Shown here: piece by piece, positions 16,305 through 54,522 of the stretch
Position numbering within the stretch: position 1 is the first letter of the stretch
How the letters are laid out: each line of letters begins with the position of its first letter
DNA from: Anaerorhabdus furcosa
GTDB lineage: Bacteria > Bacillota_I > Bacilli_A > Erysipelotrichales > Erysipelotrichaceae
Length of the DNA: 64,000 nt
NCBI RefSeq assembly: GCF_900167375.1
Contig: NZ_FUWY01000002.1
Coordinates: forward strand, 62,001-126,000
Direction: 5' to 3'
Position numbers and translations under genes: made by a program
Notes under the pieces: generated by a model
The model's database searches: none
What the model saw: the letters and a program-made list of their open reading frames with translations, nothing else
What the model was told of the DNA's origin: nothing

Positions 16305-16604
16305 ATGAAATACAATGAAATCGCAGTACTATTCAAAGCTCTATGTGATGAGAATAGAGTAAAAATTATGGAATTATTAAAAAATGGCGAGAAATGTGCC
16401 TGTATTCTTTTAGAAGAATTGCAAATAAGTCAGTCAACACTATCGCATCATATGAAAATTCTAAGTGAAAGTGAAATTGTAATTGCTCGAAAAGACGGAA
16501 AGTGGACTCATTATTCGATTAATGAGCACAAGATAAATGAGGCAAATGCATACCTAATGACCTATTTGACAACAAAAAAGGATAAGGATTGCTCATGCAA
16601 ATAA
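16305..16604 (+). CDS. arsR: ArsR-family metalloregulator
   Basis: A 99-residue winged-helix repressor. Metal site: Cys31-Ala-Cys33 lies in the sensing helix, at the same place as the CVC of classic As(III)-sensing ArsR. The recognition helix is SQSTLSHHMKIL. The C-terminus adds a second C-x-C (Cys96, Cys98), which could supply further ligands. It heads an operon with a permease, a thioredoxin-like protein and arsenate reductase, and overlaps the permease gene by ten bases. Confidence 0.9.
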   Translation: MKYNEIAVLFKALCDENRVKIMELLKNGEKCACILLEELQISQSTLSHHMKILSESEIVIARKDGKWTHYSINEHKINEANAYLMTYLTTKKDKDCSCK

Positions 16605-17608
16605 TAGAAAATATTTTATTGTTTATCCAAAATCAAGTATTGGGTATGAGGTGGTTGAATGATTCTATTGGCTATGTTTTAGAGTTAATTGGAATTGATA
16701 TAACGACAAGAATAGGTGGAAGTATCCAATTCTTTGTTTATGATGTAATTAAAATCTTATTATTACTCTCTATCTTAATTTTTATTATTTCTTATATACA
16801 AAGTTATTTCTCGCCAGAGAGAACAAAACGAATTCTCGGAAAGTATAAAGGAATATTCGCCAATACATTAGGAGCTCTTTTGGGAACAGTGACCCCATTT
16901 TGTTCCTGCTCATCAATACCACTATTTATAGGATTTACAAATGCAGGACTACCCTTGGGTGTTACATTTAGCTTTTTAATTAGTTCTCCATTAGTTGATT
17001 TAGGTGCGTTCATTTTATTGGTAAGTATTTTCGGATTTGAAATTGCATTGATTTATGTTGTGGTAGGATTAATACTTGCAATCGTAGGGGGTACTTTAAT
17101 TGATAAGTTAAAGTTAGATAACTATGTTGAAGATTATGTTCATCAAATTACTTCAATAAATATAGAAGAACCTAATTTATCTAAAAAAGATCGCATAGAA
17201 TATGCAAAGGAACAAACATTTCAAACTGTTAGGAAAGTTCTTGTTTATGTCTTAATTGGTGTAGGAATAGGTGCACTTATTCATAATTGGATACCTCAAG
17301 AATTCATTCAACGTATTTTAGGAAGTGAAAATCCATTCTCAGTTATCATTGCTACGCTTGTAGGCTTGCCCATGTATGCTGATATATTTGGTACGATTCC
17401 AATCGCAGAAGCATTATTTGTAAAAGGTGTTGGCGTAGGTACGATTTTATCATTCATGATGGCTGTTACAGCGTTATCACTTCCATCAATAATTATGTTA
17501 AGAAAAGCTGTGAAACCAAAGTTACTAATTATTTTTGTGGGTATTGTTACAGTTGGAATCATTATCATTGGTTATTTATTTAATGCATTGCAGTTCATGT
17601 TCATTTAG
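16595..17608 (+). CDS. arsP: ArsP-type permease (DUF318 family)
   Basis: A 337-residue membrane protein with eight or more hydrophobic segments. The family signature TPFCSCSS (Cys103, Cys105) lies in a membrane helix and is repeated in topology by the second half. ArsP proteins export trivalent organoarsenicals or related soft metals. The start at 16595 overlaps arsR and is preceded by AAGGATAAGG. Operon context supports arsenic export. Confidence 0.88.
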   Translation: MQIIENILLFIQNQVLGMRWLNDSIGYVLELIGIDITTRIGGSIQFFVYDVIKILLLLSILIFIISYIQSYFSPERTKRILGKYKGIFANTLGALLGTVTPFCSCSSIPLFIGFTNAGLPLGVTFSFLISSPLVDLGAFILLVSIFGFEIALIYVVVGLILAIVGGTLIDKLKLDNYVEDYVHQITSINIEEPNLSKKDRIEYAKEQTFQTVRKVLVYVLIGVGIGALIHNWIPQEFIQRILGSENPFSVIIATLVGLPMYADIFGTIPIAEALFVKGVGVGTILSFMMAVTALSLPSIIMLRKAVKPKLLIIFVGIVTVGIIIIGYLFNALQFMFI

Positions 17609-17618
17609 GAGGAAGAAA

Positions 17619-17936
17619 ATGAAATTATTTAATTTAGGAAAAAAAGAAGAATGTAGTTGTCAAAACAGAAATGAAAATCCAAACGCAAGAATTCTTGTCT
17701 TGGGAGCATGTTGTAAAAAAAGCCAAGATTCTTACGCAAATGTTTGCCAAGCAGTTAAGGAATTAAATTTAAATGAAGAAGTTTCTAATATAGGAGATAA
17801 TGGAATGATTGCGAGTTTTGGAGTAATGCAAACTCCTGCATTAGTAATTGATAAAAAAGTAGTAACTTATGGAAAACTTATTACTTGTGAGGATGCAAAG
17901 AAATTTATATTAGATTCGGGTATGGTAAATGGATAA
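17619..17936 (+). CDS. Thioredoxin-like small redox protein with adjacent cysteines
   Basis: The start at ATG 17619 follows AGGAGG. The 105-residue protein has the thioredoxin fold of the small 'redox-active disulfide protein 2' type: strand ILVLGA, helix, and the cis-Pro block M-Q-T-P (Thr71-Pro72). At the active site the usual GCxxC is replaced by Cys31-Cys32-Lys-Lys-Ser. Two more cysteines (Cys12, Cys14) lie in a lysine/asparagine-rich N-terminus. It overlaps arsC by eight bases, so it may reduce ArsC or carry arsenite. Confidence 0.8.
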   Translation: MKLFNLGKKEECSCQNRNENPNARILVLGACCKKSQDSYANVCQAVKELNLNEEVSNIGDNGMIASFGVMQTPALVIDKKVVTYGKLITCEDAKKFILDSGMVNG

Positions 17937-18336
17937 ATTGAAAATTGCTTTTGTGTGTGTTCATAATTCATGTCGAAGTCAAATCGCAGAAGCACTTGCG
18001 AAGAAATATATAGCAAACCAATATGATATTTATTCTGCTGGAACTGAGGTTAAACCCAGTATAAATCAAGATGCCGTAAGACTGATGAAAGATTTGTACT
18101 CAATCGATATGGAAAAGGAACAGTATTCAAAACTTATTGATGAAATACCACCTGTAGATATTGTGATCACAATGGGCTGTAATGTGAATTGCCCATATCT
18201 TCCTTGTTCATACAGAGAAGATTGGGGTCTAGATGATCCTACAGGAAAAGATGATGAAGAATTTAAACGCATAATTTTACTTATTGACAAATATGTCAAG
18301 GAATTAGGGAATCGTCATTTTGAAGTCCTAAAATAA
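17929..18336 (+). CDS. arsC: Arsenate reductase, low-molecular-weight phosphatase type
   Basis: A 135-residue ArsC of the thioredoxin-coupled class. The phosphatase loop is C-x5-R at Cys10-Arg16, with Cys15 inside it. The redox shuttle cysteines are Cys84 and Cys88 or Cys93 (MGCNVNCPYLPC), and Asp102/103 of the DDPTG motif supplies the general acid. It reduces arsenate to arsenite for export by the operon's permease. Thioredoxin-like protein and reductase are translationally coupled. Confidence 0.93.
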   Translation: MDKLKIAFVCVHNSCRSQIAEALAKKYIANQYDIYSAGTEVKPSINQDAVRLMKDLYSIDMEKEQYSKLIDEIPPVDIVITMGCNVNCPYLPCSYREDWGLDDPTGKDDEEFKRIILLIDKYVKELGNRHFEVLK

Positions 18337-21887: not shown

Positions 21888-21915
21888 TGTGCTACAATTC
21901 AAGCGAGGTAAAAAA

Positions 21916-22731
21916 ATGGAACTTATATTAGATGCAATAATTGATACTTTAAAAATAATGCCTTTTTTATTTGTAACGTATTTGGTTATTGAATGGATAG
22001 AACATAAAGCAAGTGACAAGATAGCGATTGGTATTCAAAAGTCTGCCAAATTTGGTCCACTACTGGGAAGTGCAGCAGGGCTGCTACCACAGTGTGGATT
22101 TTCATCAATTGCTTCTACATTGTATGTCACACGTGTTTTAACTCTAGGGACATTGGTATCAATTTATTTAGCAACTTCAGATGAAATGTTACCAATCATG
22201 ATATCAAATAGTGCACCTTTTGATTTAATATTGAAAGTATTAGGTATTAAATTTGTTGTTGGTATGGTTGTGGGTTATATCATTGATTTTGTGAGTAGAA
22301 AGACGAAAAAAGAAGAAATGCACATTGATGCATTTTGTGAAGAAGAGGATTGTAACTGTGATGAAGATGGAATACTTGTTTCAGCACTAAAACATACTCT
22401 TAAGATTAGTTTCTATATTTTAATTGTTACCTACTTATTGAATGTTGTTATTGCTAGTGTTCATTTAGAGCAATTATTAGTTGTTTCTCCTACTTTAACG
22501 GTATTTATATCTGCAATTATAGGATTGATTCCAAATTGTGCAGCATCCATTGTATTGACTGAACTGTATTTAGAAGGAGTTCTTAGCTTTGGGGCAATGA
22601 TGGCAGGGTTATTAACTAATGCTGGGGTAGGTTTGTTGGTGTTGTTTAGAATTAATAAAAACATGAAAGAAAATATGAAGATTATTGCGATCTTATTATT
22701 TGTTGGGATTGTAGTCGGTCTTTTGATTTAA
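21916..22731 (+). CDS. ArsP_2-type putative heavy-metal exporter
   Basis: A 271-residue membrane protein with about eight spans arranged as two halves. Each half carries a metal-type motif: P-Q-C-G-F-S in the first and P-N-C-A-A-S in the second. The central loop is acidic and Cys/His-containing (H-I-D-A-F-C-E-E-E-D-C-N-C). The family is described as putative manganese or arsenic transporters; the substrate is unproven. It is transcribed alone from an extended -10 (TGCTACAAT, 21890-21898). Confidence 0.78.
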   Translation: MELILDAIIDTLKIMPFLFVTYLVIEWIEHKASDKIAIGIQKSAKFGPLLGSAAGLLPQCGFSSIASTLYVTRVLTLGTLVSIYLATSDEMLPIMISNSAPFDLILKVLGIKFVVGMVVGYIIDFVSRKTKKEEMHIDAFCEEEDCNCDEDGILVSALKHTLKISFYILIVTYLLNVVIASVHLEQLLVVSPTLTVFISAIIGLIPNCAASIVLTELYLEGVLSFGAMMAGLLTNAGVGLLVLFRINKNMKENMKIIAILLFVGIVVGLLI

Positions 22732-42025: not shown

Positions 42026-43519
42026 CTAAAGAGATTTTGATTTATAAACTGATATTCCATTTAGGTATGTTTCGACAACTTTGGTACTTTCAATTGTTAT
42101 GTTTAAATCGAGTAAATCTTGATTTAGAATGACAAAATTTGCCTTTTTTCCTATAGTGAGTGAGCCTTGATCAAGTAATCCAACAATGTTTGCTGCATTG
42201 ATTGTATAGCAATCAATTGCTTCTTGAATAGATATTTTTTCTTGAACTCCAGTTTCGATATCATTATAGCTCTTTCTATTGCAACTAGATGCAATTCCTA
42301 TGAATGGATTATATGCATCAGACCAAGAAGTAGCAGGTGCATCACTAGAAAAAGCAAGTGGAATTTGATGATTTAATATTGATTTATATGGATAACAATA
42401 AGCTTTGAATTCATCACCTAAGTTTTTTAGATAACTTTCTATCTCTGCATACATAAAGATAGGTTGAGAAACAATAGCAACATGGTTCTTCGATGTAAGT
42501 TCTAATAATTCTTTGTTTGTGATTGTATAATGTTCTAAACGTACAGAAGGAATATCCAACCAATCATCATTTTTGTGCTTTAAAATCGTTCGAATTGCTT
42601 CATCTCCCATAGCATGTGCAATAAGTTGAAGATGATTTTTTCTTGCCAAATCATATGCGTTTTTTATGTCACTATCATTTATGGTACATAATCCGACATT
42701 TTGGCTATTTTTATAAGGAATACTACACCAAGCTGTTTGGCCACTAATACTTCCATCAGCAAGTATTTTAATCCCTTGTAATTTTATGTGGGGTTGTGTT
42801 GGCTTGGGCAGGTGATCAAGCTGTTTTATTGATTGATAGTCATAAGAAAATAATATAGTTTGTTTAACTGCGCCGTTAAATGAATCATAAATTTGAAGAG
42901 ATTCAGGTGTACCTAGCATTTCGGAGATTGTCGTAATTCCTTTTGATATGCAATCTTCACTAAGTTTCTTCAAATTGATTTGAATTTCTTCAATAGAAAG
43001 ACTTGGAATCTTCTTGAATGCTTCAAATTTATCAGTTTCTTTTAATATGCCATCATGATGAGTTGGATCAAATCCTAAGACTTGCAATGCTTTTGTGTTG
43101 CACATACAAATGTGATTGCATGTTCTTTCAATGACTACAGGTTTTGTTGTACATGCGCGATCTAGATCATCTTTACTACAAAGTCGATGTTCTTTTATTT
43201 TTCCTTCGTCAAATCCCCAACCAAGAATCCAATCATTAGAAGTTCTTCTTTTTATTTCGGCTAGACAATCTTCGATAGAATAAATAAGCGGGGGTAAGCA
43301 TGCGAATTTATTGAGATTCTCGGCAATCCAAAGTGGATGCATATGGATATCAAAAAACGAGGGACAAACAAATTTTCCTTTAGCATCAATAAGTTGATCG
43401 CCTTCTAAATTGTTTTTTGATATCGCAATGATTTTATCGTGTTCAAAAGACATGCTTTTGGCTATTGGCATGTCTTTGTTAGCGGTATATATTTTTGCGT
43501 TAATTATTGTTGTTTTCAT
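42026..43519 (-). CDS. Amidohydrolase family protein (YtcJ-like)
   Basis: A 497-residue metal-dependent hydrolase. The D-I-H-M-H metal motif, the central L-A-D-G-S-I-S-G, the H-A-M-G-D-E and R-L-E-H-Y histidine motifs, and S-S-D-A-P-A near the C-terminus match the amidohydrolase-3 subgroup. The protein is cytosolic. The substrate is unknown. Its stop and the preceding gene are separated by 35 bases. Confidence 0.88.
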   Translation of the reverse strand: MKTTIINAKIYTANKDMPIAKSMSFEHDKIIAISKNNLEGDQLIDAKGKFVCPSFFDIHMHPLWIAENLNKFACLPPLIYSIEDCLAEIKRRTSNDWILGWGFDEGKIKEHRLCSKDDLDRACTTKPVVIERTCNHICMCNTKALQVLGFDPTHHDGILKETDKFEAFKKIPSLSIEEIQINLKKLSEDCISKGITTISEMLGTPESLQIYDSFNGAVKQTILFSYDYQSIKQLDHLPKPTQPHIKLQGIKILADGSISGQTAWCSIPYKNSQNVGLCTINDSDIKNAYDLARKNHLQLIAHAMGDEAIRTILKHKNDDWLDIPSVRLEHYTITNKELLELTSKNHVAIVSQPIFMYAEIESYLKNLGDEFKAYCYPYKSILNHQIPLAFSSDAPATSWSDAYNPFIGIASSCNRKSYNDIETGVQEKISIQEAIDCYTINAANIVGLLDQGSLTIGKKANFVILNQDLLDLNITIESTKVVETYLNGISVYKSKSL

Positions 43520-43554: not shown

Positions 43555-44052
43555 TTATTCAATGCAATTTAAGATTGTTTTTTCTAGGTTGATTAAGTCA
43601 TTTGCGTCAGGATGAGATAGTGCTCGATCAAAGTTATCAATGAGATTTTTTGCTTTTTCTGGATCGTTGGCAAACATTGTACTGTATCGTTCGCGGACAA
43701 TCATTGGCATTTTACCTTGGCAAATAAAAGATCCAAGAACAGAACATGAAGGATTTATATTTTTTTGAATCCTCTCACTTAAATCTAAAAAATATTGTTC
43801 ACTTTCACCAAACCCACAAGTCCCAAATAGGAAAATCTTTTTGTCTTCGATATCTTTAAGAAATAGTTGGATTTCTTCTGAACATGTTCCTTTGTCGATC
43901 CATGTACCAATGAATAGAAGATCTGCATCTTTTGCGATGACATTGGGTTTGCCATAATAGATGCAATCATCTTGAGGTAAAATTTCTTTAAGATGGTTTG
44001 CTAATTGTTCGGTATTTCCAGTTTTACTTGAATAAATGATAGAATATTTCAT
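43555..44052 (-). CDS. bilS: Flavodoxin-like protein, possible BilS partner of the OYE reductase
   Basis: A 165-residue flavodoxin-fold protein with the FMN phosphate loop S-S-K-T-G-N-T (residues 8-14), F-I-G-T-W-I-D-K-G and F-G-T-C-G-F. It lacks the long insert of long-chain flavodoxins. It lies three bases behind the OYE-type reductase and could pass electrons to it. In the described gut bilirubin reductase operons, the flavodoxin-like protein is called BilS; this name here is by analogy. Confidence 0.75.
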   Translation of the reverse strand: MKYSIIYSSKTGNTEQLANHLKEILPQDDCIYYGKPNVIAKDADLLFIGTWIDKGTCSEEIQLFLKDIEDKKIFLFGTCGFGESEQYFLDLSERIQKNINPSCSVLGSFICQGKMPMIVRERYSTMFANDPEKAKNLIDNFDRALSHPDANDLINLEKTILNCIE

Positions 44053-44055
44053 TTT

Positions 44056-45018
44056 CTAATTCTCCTTTTCATAAATGCAGTGAACACCTTTGTGCTCCTG
44101 CATGCCACCTAAGCATTTTTTATTACAGCGAACACAAGTATGAATTTGATCAGCTTGATTGTTAATGACTTTGTTCACCCAGTTTGGATCTGCGATTAAT
44201 TGTCTGCTCATTGCAGCAAGTTCAAAGCGATCCTCACTTATGCTCTTCTCGATGAATTCAGGATGTACTAAGCCACCAACGGCAGCACAAGGTAATTTGG
44301 TATATTTGCGGACTTCATCAACATAAGGTAGAAAACATCCTTCTTGATTGAAATATGGATGATTATAGGGTGGAATACAATCACTTAATTCACTATGATT
44401 TGCAAGTGCTATATGAAAACTTGTAACACCTGCCTTCTCTAATAGTGGTACAAAGGTAGAACACTCTTCAAGCAGTACGCCAGCATTGCCGTAATGAGGA
44501 TTTTCTTGTCTAATAGCTAGTTTATAATCGATTGGAACTGTTGGTACTGCTTCATGAACTGCCTCGATTGATTCAATGGCGAATCTTGCTCGATTTTCAA
44601 TGCTTCCACCATATTCATCAGTTCTTTGATTAAAAACTGTGGATGAGAAACTACCACACATGCGATCACCATGAATTTGAATCATATCAAATCCTGCTTT
44701 TACTGCTAGTTTTGCGGCATCGCCGAATGAGGAAGTAATTTCTTTTACTTTTGAAGTGGGAAGTTCATTAATTAATACCTTTACTTGATCATTTAATAAC
44801 TTTCTTAAATCATTTGGTGTAATTTTCTTTGTCAGTATTCCAGGAATATATTTAATCATTCCTTTAAAATTACTATCTGATTTATGTAACTGAGCACTAA
44901 GTAAGCAATTCTCTTTGTGTACTAGGTCAGCTAATTCTTTGTAATAGTTAAATCCTGCTTTTTGATGAAGTGATAAGTGGCCTTTTTTAGATACAGGAAC
45001 ATCTCCGATAATAATCAT
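44056..45018 (-). CDS. bilR: OYE-family reductase resembling bilirubin reductase BilR (5' end disrupted)
   Basis: From the first standard start (ATG 45018) the product is 320 residues, an OYE/TIM-barrel reductase with a [4Fe-4S]-type cluster near the C-terminus (Cys295, Cys298, Cys302, Cys314) but no NAD/FAD domain. In place of the usual H-G-A-H active-site loop it has I-H-G-D-R-M-C-G, where Asp118-Arg119 match the Asp-Arg pair reported for BilR. The same frame continues upstream with clear OYE sequence (T-L-K-N-R-I-I-F-A-P-T-T-L-G) that carries the FMN strand but has no ATG, GTG or TTG. A one-base shift in a C4 run at 45136-45139 would link it to ATG 45145. Confidence 0.7.
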   Translation of the reverse strand: MIIIGDVPVSKKGHLSLHQKAGFNYYKELADLVHKENCLLSAQLHKSDSNFKGMIKYIPGILTKKITPNDLRKLLNDQVKVLINELPTSKVKEITSSFGDAAKLAVKAGFDMIQIHGDRMCGSFSSTVFNQRTDEYGGSIENRARFAIESIEAVHEAVPTVPIDYKLAIRQENPHYGNAGVLLEECSTFVPLLEKAGVTSFHIALANHSELSDCIPPYNHPYFNQEGCFLPYVDEVRKYTKLPCAAVGGLVHPEFIEKSISEDRFELAAMSRQLIADPNWVNKVINNQADQIHTCVRCNKKCLGGMQEHKGVHCIYEKEN

Positions 45019-45103
45019 TGCACTTCCACCTCGAGCAATTTCTTGTATTTTTTTAAAGTACTCTTCTTTTTTTAGACCTAGCGTTGTTGGTGCAAATATA
45101 ATT

Positions 45104-45574
45104 CTATTTTTTAATGTTACATTTCCTATGGTTAAGGGGTTGCATATTTGGTTGTACGTAATGGTCGCCTTCTTTCAATAATGAATCCAATGTTTGCAAA
45201 AAATCTTGTTTTTCTTTTTTTGAAAAATCCTTTAAGATGTGATTATCCCATGCGGAAAATAGATTATGTCCTATCTTAAAAGCTTCTTCACCTTGTTTGG
45301 TTAACTTGAGTATATGGGCTCTGCGATCATCAGGGTTAACATCTTGTAAAACAAAGCCACTATTTTCAAGTTTAGTTAATGTCCGATTCGTATGACCTGC
45401 ATCCATGTGTAACCGTTCACTCAATTCTGAAGGTGAACAGTTTGGGTGTTTACCGATATAAAGAATAAAAAAGAATAGTCCTTGAGTTAATCCCAATTTC
45501 TGTAGTTCAGAACTGCAATATTCTTTGAAATCTTTTCTTAATACGGTTACATAATAAGCTAACGTCTTTTCCAT
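45104..45574 (-). CDS. bilQ: MarR-family regulator, possible BilQ
   Basis: The start at 45574 is chosen for its GGAGAAG site; the longer upstream frame has none. The 156-residue protein has a MarR winged helix (AGHTNRTLTKLENSGFVLQDVNPDDRRAHILKLT). The C-terminal 12-15 residues are encoded in the region that overlaps the start of the reductase in another frame. The operon order MarR, OYE, flavodoxin equals that of bilQRS. A perfect inverted repeat overlaps its promoter. Confidence 0.82.
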   Translation of the reverse strand: MEKTLAYYVTVLRKDFKEYCSSELQKLGLTQGLFFFILYIGKHPNCSPSELSERLHMDAGHTNRTLTKLENSGFVLQDVNPDDRRAHILKLTKQGEEAFKIGHNLFSAWDNHILKDFSKKEKQDFLQTLDSLLKEGDHYVQPNMQPLNHRKCNIKK

Positions 45575-45586
45575 ATTTCTTCTCCT

Positions 45587-45631
45587 ATACTTGACTAAAT
45601 CAAGTATATTCCTAGTTTTATATTTTGTCAA
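45587..45631 (-). promoter_or_regulatory. Promoter and MarR operator of the bilQRS-like operon
   Basis: On the minus strand, TTGACA (45626-45631) and TATACT (45603-45608) are 17 bases apart, close to consensus. The perfect repeat ATACTTGA-N5-TCAAGTAT (45587-45607) overlaps the -10 box and start point, a position that blocks polymerase when bound. Autorepression by the MarR protein is likely. Confidence 0.8.
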
Positions 45632-53462: not shown

Positions 53463-54374
53463 TTACATTCCAGATTTGATACCTTTTTTCACTAAATACC
53501 AATTCATTGGATAAGCAGTAATAAAACCACAAAGCATAGCGATTTGCATCATAAACCAAAACTCAGGAGTTGTTACTGGTAATTTTCCAAAAAGAACAAA
53601 TGTACAAATTGCCATCCAACCATACATACCAACTTGCCAAGAAGTTAATGAAAAGAAATCAATCTTAAGTGCTTGAATCCATACTTTGAACCCTTTTTCT
53701 TTTCTCATCGGTGCAATTGCTGCATATTGAAATGTAGCCCCGATTAATAAAGCGATAATAAAATCCAATACCCATTCACCAAAAATAAGATGATTGAATA
53801 AAGTAAATGGTATTAATAAGAAAATCCAAGGTCCAATTAAATCAGCTAAGCTACATCCTGCTCCACAATGCAAAGTATCGACAATGATTCCTTGCCAATA
53901 GGATGAATATTTTTCTTTGTGCATGTTTGTTTTCATCTTTGCAGCGTCCATGTGCATATCAGGCATATCCATTTTCATGCTTGAAGAATCCATGTGCATA
54001 TCAGGCATATCCATTTTCATGCTTGAAGAATCCATGTTCATATTAGGCATATCCATTTTCATGCTTGAAGAATCCATGTTCATATTAGGCATATCCATTT
54101 TCATGTTTGAAGAGTCCATATTCATATCAGGCATATCCATTTTCATACTTGAAGAGTCCATATTCATATCGGGCATATTCATTTTCATTTTGCGATGCTT
54201 TCCTAAGGTGAAGTAAGCCCACACACAAAGTGGCCCTGCCCAGAGTGCATTGATAGGCCATACAAAATTCATTACTTTCATTTCTTGAGGATGAAGTAGA
54301 ATGTCGATTGTAATTAAGATTGCACAAAAGATACCTAATAAAATAAAAAACATTGATAAATAAGTAAAGTTCAT
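53463..54374 (-). CDS. DUF4396 membrane protein with Met/Asp-rich repeat insertion
   Basis: The start at 54374 follows GGAGG. The 303-residue protein begins with two membrane spans, then has six copies of a 14-residue unit (consensus M-D-M-P-D-M-N-M-D-S-S-S-M-K) at about residues 63-146, then the DUF4396 domain with a conserved H-C-G-A-G-C-S-L-A-D and three or four membrane spans. DUF4396 proteins are usually about 200 residues without such repeats. Methionine/aspartate/histidine-rich repeats suggest a copper- or silver-binding segment. Confidence 0.8.
   Translation of the reverse strand: MNFTYLSMFFILLGIFCAILITIDILLHPQEMKVMNFVWPINALWAGPLCVWAYFTLGKHRKMKMNMPDMNMDSSSMKMDMPDMNMDSSNMKMDMPNMNMDSSSMKMDMPNMNMDSSSMKMDMPDMHMDSSSMKMDMPDMHMDAAKMKTNMHKEKYSSYWQGIIVDTLHCGAGCSLADLIGPWIFLLIPFTLFNHLIFGEWVLDFIIALLIGATFQYAAIAPMRKEKGFKVWIQALKIDFFSLTSWQVGMYGWMAICTFVLFGKLPVTTPEFWFMMQIAMLCGFITAYPMNWYLVKKGIKSGM
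53947..54198 (-). repeat. Six tandem 42-bp repeats within the DUF4396 gene
   Basis: The 42-base unit is repeated six times in frame, encoding the Met/Asp-rich 14-mers. The copies nearest the 3' end of the gene (53947-54030) are almost identical, while the 5' copies (towards 54198) differ by synonymous and Asn/His/Asp changes. This gradient suggests recent expansion at one end. Confidence 0.88.
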
Positions 54375-54522
54375 AAGTTCCTCCAAAACTAAGAAGTTAT
54401 CATGAACAAAAGTAATATAAGGTTAATTTGGATGCTCATGATAGGTCTAAATTTATTATAAAATACAAAGTTGAATAAGTGATAAATTACGATTTATAGA
54501 AAAAGAAAAGGGATATGCTCCC

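Follow-up and report, generated by a model that had tools for sequence, protein, structure and literature searches.

A predicted bilQRS operon with a short-form bilirubin reductase and a non-canonical bilR start in Anaerorhabdus furcosa

Main finding

The minus strand of Anaerorhabdus furcosa between positions 45574 and 43555 of the 64-kb window (the whole stretch of DNA analysed here) carries a predicted bilQ-bilR-bilS operon of the BilR-short type, and the probability that both the identity of the locus and its reaction are correctly assigned is put at about 0.88. Sequence analysis recovers the three gene families in bilQ-bilR-bilS order and a reductase with the catalytic motif, all four cysteines and an OYE-type predicted fold. 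The locus is an added member of a published family and not a new system (PMC10769871). The bilQRS loci that Hall et al. (2024, PMC10769871) described from C. symbiosum and C. difficile have the same three families, with an HGDR motif in a short BilR, a separate BilS flavodoxin and a MarR-type BilQ; the window locus differs from them in its non-canonical bilR start and in its different, Erysipelotrichaceae-type bacterial family. Tentatively, and at somewhat less than even odds, bilR may have lost its ATG and now be translated from an ATT codon, which would throttle bile-pigment reduction in addition to transcriptional control by BilQ at a palindrome shared by the bil operons of gut Bacillota.

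Genes of the operon

A first-pass annotation of this DNA had proposed a bilQRS-like locus with a MarR-type gene, an OYE-fold reductase and a flavodoxin gene in that order. All three are present as described on a single strand, and each product scores above its curated NCBIfam cut-off, with bilR lying between the genes for the BilQ and BilS equivalogs. The first gene, bilQ (45104..45574, minus strand), runs from an ATG at 45574 to a stop ending at 45104 and encodes a MarR-family regulator of 156 aa (NF045593, 184.2 bits, cut-off 125; Pfam MarR). The second, bilR (44056..45162, minus strand), has a reading frame whose stop ends at 44056 and comprises 368 codons when counted from the candidate ATT (NF045592, 537.7 bits, cut-off 425). 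The third, bilS (43555..44052, minus strand), encodes a flavodoxin-family protein of 165 aa (NF045594, 210.5 bits, cut-off 155; Pfam Flavodoxin_3).

An Amidohydro_3 gene (42026-43519, minus strand) follows bilS on the same strand at a distance of 35 nt, and no terminator-like site was found between the two. It was rejected as a part of the system, as no homologue occurs at any other bil locus examined.

Family, active site and predicted fold of BilR

BilR belongs to the short subtype, in which Oxidored_FMN is the sole domain match, C-terminal flavodoxin and NADP-binding domains are absent, and bilS is a separate, adjacent gene; the absence of an NAD/FAD domain had been noticed at first pass. 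The competing OYE models (BaiCD, mycofactocin OYE and NamA) gave scores far under their cut-offs for this protein, and an ordinary OYE identity was ruled out by the family scores, the motif and the tree. Identity is 61-66% to the closest relatives, about 59% to the C. symbiosum protein and 49% to that of C. difficile.

The IHGDRMCG segment of the first-pass annotation was recovered, with HGDR at 44673-44662 (minus strand). The Asp-Arg pair had been placed at about residue 160, but with the N-terminus restored it lies at residues 166-167, giving H164, G165, D166 and R167 when numbered from the ATT. Mutation of D166-R167 in the R. gnavus BilR sharply reduced activity (Hall et al., 2024, PMC10769871), and the pair found here corresponds exactly to the residues tested by mutation, which supports the BilR identity. 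In an alignment of the window protein with 23 relatives, H164, G165 and D166 are invariant and R167 is at least 90% conserved. Also invariant across these 24 sequences are the four cysteines of a C-x2-C-x3-C-x11-C cluster near the end of the protein, likewise noticed at first pass (CVRCNKKCLGGMQEHKGVHC, 44136-44077, minus strand; residues 343, 346, 350 and 362), which are probable 4Fe-4S ligands.

A maximum-likelihood tree of 82 rows, whose bootstrap is not fully settled, places the window BilR within the short-form rows, between C. difficile and C. symbiosum, species with proven bilirubin reducers; the tree supports the clade and not the exact position inside it. C. symbiosum and the window protein share a 99/95 group with C. 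difficile, which is its first branch, while the long-form BilR (100/99) and the OYE outgroups (100/100) are separate from the short-BilR rows. The tree proposed as a check at first pass came out in favour of the annotation, with the reductase inside the short-BilR clade, outside the OYE outgroups and with its Asp-Arg pair kept. The BilR part of the tree also contains three short BilR-like proteins without HGDR, from an uncultured Oscillospiraceae member (L076), Flintibacter muris (L078) and an uncultured Peptococcaceae member (L082), the last of which has HGDH at this position.

The AlphaFold model of BilR is confident (pLDDT 90.8, pTM 0.91) and predicts an OYE-type barrel, in which H164 ends a strand and the Asp-Arg pair sits in the loop that follows directly. 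The best PDB sequence match, 2,4-dienoyl-CoA reductase (1ps9), has the OYE barrel (Z 38.7 against the model) and the cysteine cluster in common with BilR, and the cluster cysteines of the two proteins align; it differs in its low identity (about 23-25%), the absence of HGDR and its extra C-terminal domains. The long or insertion forms of BilR that occur with BilV in Ruminococcus gnavus and Faecalibacillus intestinalis (PMC13252198) share the HGDR active site and the barrel, whereas the window BilR has no C-terminal domains and its genome no BilV.

Start of bilR

In relatives, bilR starts with ATG, sometimes GTG, 15 to 17 codons before a conserved KNR segment, and the usual start context is ATG-TAC or ATG-TAT. 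At this conserved start the window gene reads ACG TAC (ACG at 45159-45157, minus strand), directly preceded by ATT (45162-45160), and the stretch separating the upstream TGA from the methionine codon at 45018 (Met46) contains no ATG, GTG or TTG. Roseburia inulinivorans has ATT ATG TAC at the same position, pointing to one T to C substitution in the window gene. Judged from the sequence, the ATT directly before the ACG is the closest plausible initiator; it has AAGG upstream and falls where two relatives (L049 and L011) start with ATG or GTG. Translation of bilR probably begins at this ATT, with lower enzyme output as the expected result, a proposal much less certain than the identity of the locus.

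An apparent ATT start is also seen elsewhere in the genome, where infC (L100, about position 1478) appears to begin with ATT ACT AAA after GGAGG, although in-frame ATG and GTG codons lie just upstream (the ATG a few codons away). The ATT of infC is the familiar non-AUG start of IF3, and its apparent use here makes AUU initiation plausible in this organism. In a second bilR, that of Faecalibacterium gallinarum JCM 17207 (L044), the conserved start likewise lacks ATG, GTG and TTG, and an ATT lies at good spacing after AAGGAG.

Because the conserved ATG is ACG here, bilR may be either weakly translated or silenced. Recent silencing by the ATG to ACG change, in an otherwise true bilQRS operon, would mean that the organism does not reduce bilirubin; this deserves serious consideration, though we find it rather doubtful. 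It draws on the loss of a start codon that nearly all relatives have and on the lack of ATG, GTG or TTG before Met46, from which initiation would remove the first strands and a helix of the barrel. However, the rest of the frame is intact and retains all invariant residues, the ATT and its AAGG stand where L049 and L011 start, and expression from AUU or AUA in S. aureus, measured in poor medium, is about 10% of that from AUG (PMC13009471).

The ACG may instead be a sequencing or assembly error, in which case the true start would be ATG and the locus wholly ordinary. A single T-to-C difference would restore the family's ATG-TAC at exactly the expected codon, the Roseburia inulinivorans sequence has precisely this form, and the 273 genomes of the family offer no other member of the genus for comparison. 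Nevertheless, substitution errors are uncommon in an assembly of this kind (11 contigs, 95.7% complete), and Faecalibacterium gallinarum independently has no canonical bilR start. An error is considered rather unlikely.

Three further possibilities were set aside. The start at Met 45018 in the standard list of open reading frames was rejected because it would deprive the protein of its conserved N-terminus, in which L-K-N and F-A-P are invariant. A BilQ-BilR fusion through frameshifting or slippage at the A6 run in the gene overlap is improbable, given the +1 offset of the frames and the short run, and the bilR genes of relatives have independent ATG starts, which argues against fusion. The long overlap itself is no defect, since the same overlap is present in L063. 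Non-canonical starts of this type can lead gene callers to truncate or drop bilR, biasing predicted-protein surveys of bilirubin reduction.

Promoter and candidate BilQ operator

Of the promoter-like sites in the region, TTGACA-17-TATACT (45631-45603, minus strand) is the best, matching the consensus at 11 of 12 positions. As read at first pass, it is overlapped by a perfect inverted repeat, here located at its -10 box, TATACTTGA-N5-TCAAGTATA (45586-45608), with arms of 9 bp around a 5-bp spacer. The pattern is conserved upstream of bil operons: of 44 loci, 28 have CTTGA-N5-TCAAG ahead of bilQ (47 sites in all) and 41 the looser TTGA-N5-TCAA, counts that include close relatives and so do not represent independent events. 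The flanks of these loci, 354 kb together, contain CTTGA-N5-TCAAG only once. The sites are found in Lachnospiraceae, Oscillospiraceae and Butyricicoccaceae as well as in the family to which the window belongs. At many bil loci two copies are found about 28 bp apart, and the palindrome is also present at 6 of 19 loci without an adjacent bilQ.

These patterns make the -10 palindrome a very probable operator for BilQ, which would probably repress the operon by binding there and release the DNA on sensing a bile pigment or a related signal. Strong evidence from the genome suggests that such control would be mainly local: ACTTGA-N5-TCAAGT has a single exact copy, and a search for other BilQ targets in the same genome found one-mismatch copies no commoner than a control pattern. 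No description of the DNA target or signal of BilQ was found in the open-access papers searched, among which the protein appears only in PMC10769871. The shared palindrome thus offers a concrete, testable candidate operator for BilQ.

Genome context and expected product

The window genome (2.41 Mb) carries one BilR. In the family set, 273 genomes of Erysipelotrichaceae that include Solobacterium and Dielma, BilR scores above the cut-off in 29 genomes, many of them with long forms. No second OYE-family enzyme over the PF00724 cut-off was found in the window genome, which is 95.7% complete, and this indicates that BilV is absent. The locus matches the pattern of BilR-short without BilV in a preprint in which bilV was carried by 0.4% of bilR-short species and cells with BilR alone formed divinyl-urobilinogen (PMC13252198). 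On that basis, bilirubin reduction by this organism, which we infer from its genes, would leave the vinyl groups unreduced, and the expected product is divinyl-urobilinogen and not full urobilinogen. An Erysipelotrichaceae-type genus would thereby be added to those with a short BilR but no BilV, and should give divinyl-urobilinoids only.

A BilR-clade ene-reductase acting on another linear tetrapyrrole or an unrelated enoate and not on bilirubin is very improbable: the identity is predicted from sequence with only the above similarity to the C. difficile and C. symbiosum proteins, and BilR also accepts biliverdin (PMC13252198), but HGDR is retained, the equivalog score is well above its cut-off, bilQ and bilS are present, and the protein is nested among species with proven reducers.

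Other observations in the window

Two regions of the window (16589-18336 and 21889-22731) contain an ArsP_1 permease gene followed by thioredoxin-like and ArsC-like small frames, which were assigned by reading alone, and an ArsP_2 exporter gene 3.5 kb away; a role of these genes in arsenic or organoarsenical resistance is possible. Further, a DUF4396 membrane protein gene (53463-54386, minus strand) contains a 42-bp repeat at 53947-54188 (5.8 copies, 95% matches), the product of which is Met/Asp-rich, MDMPDMNMDSSSMK-like, and resembles metal-binding repeats.
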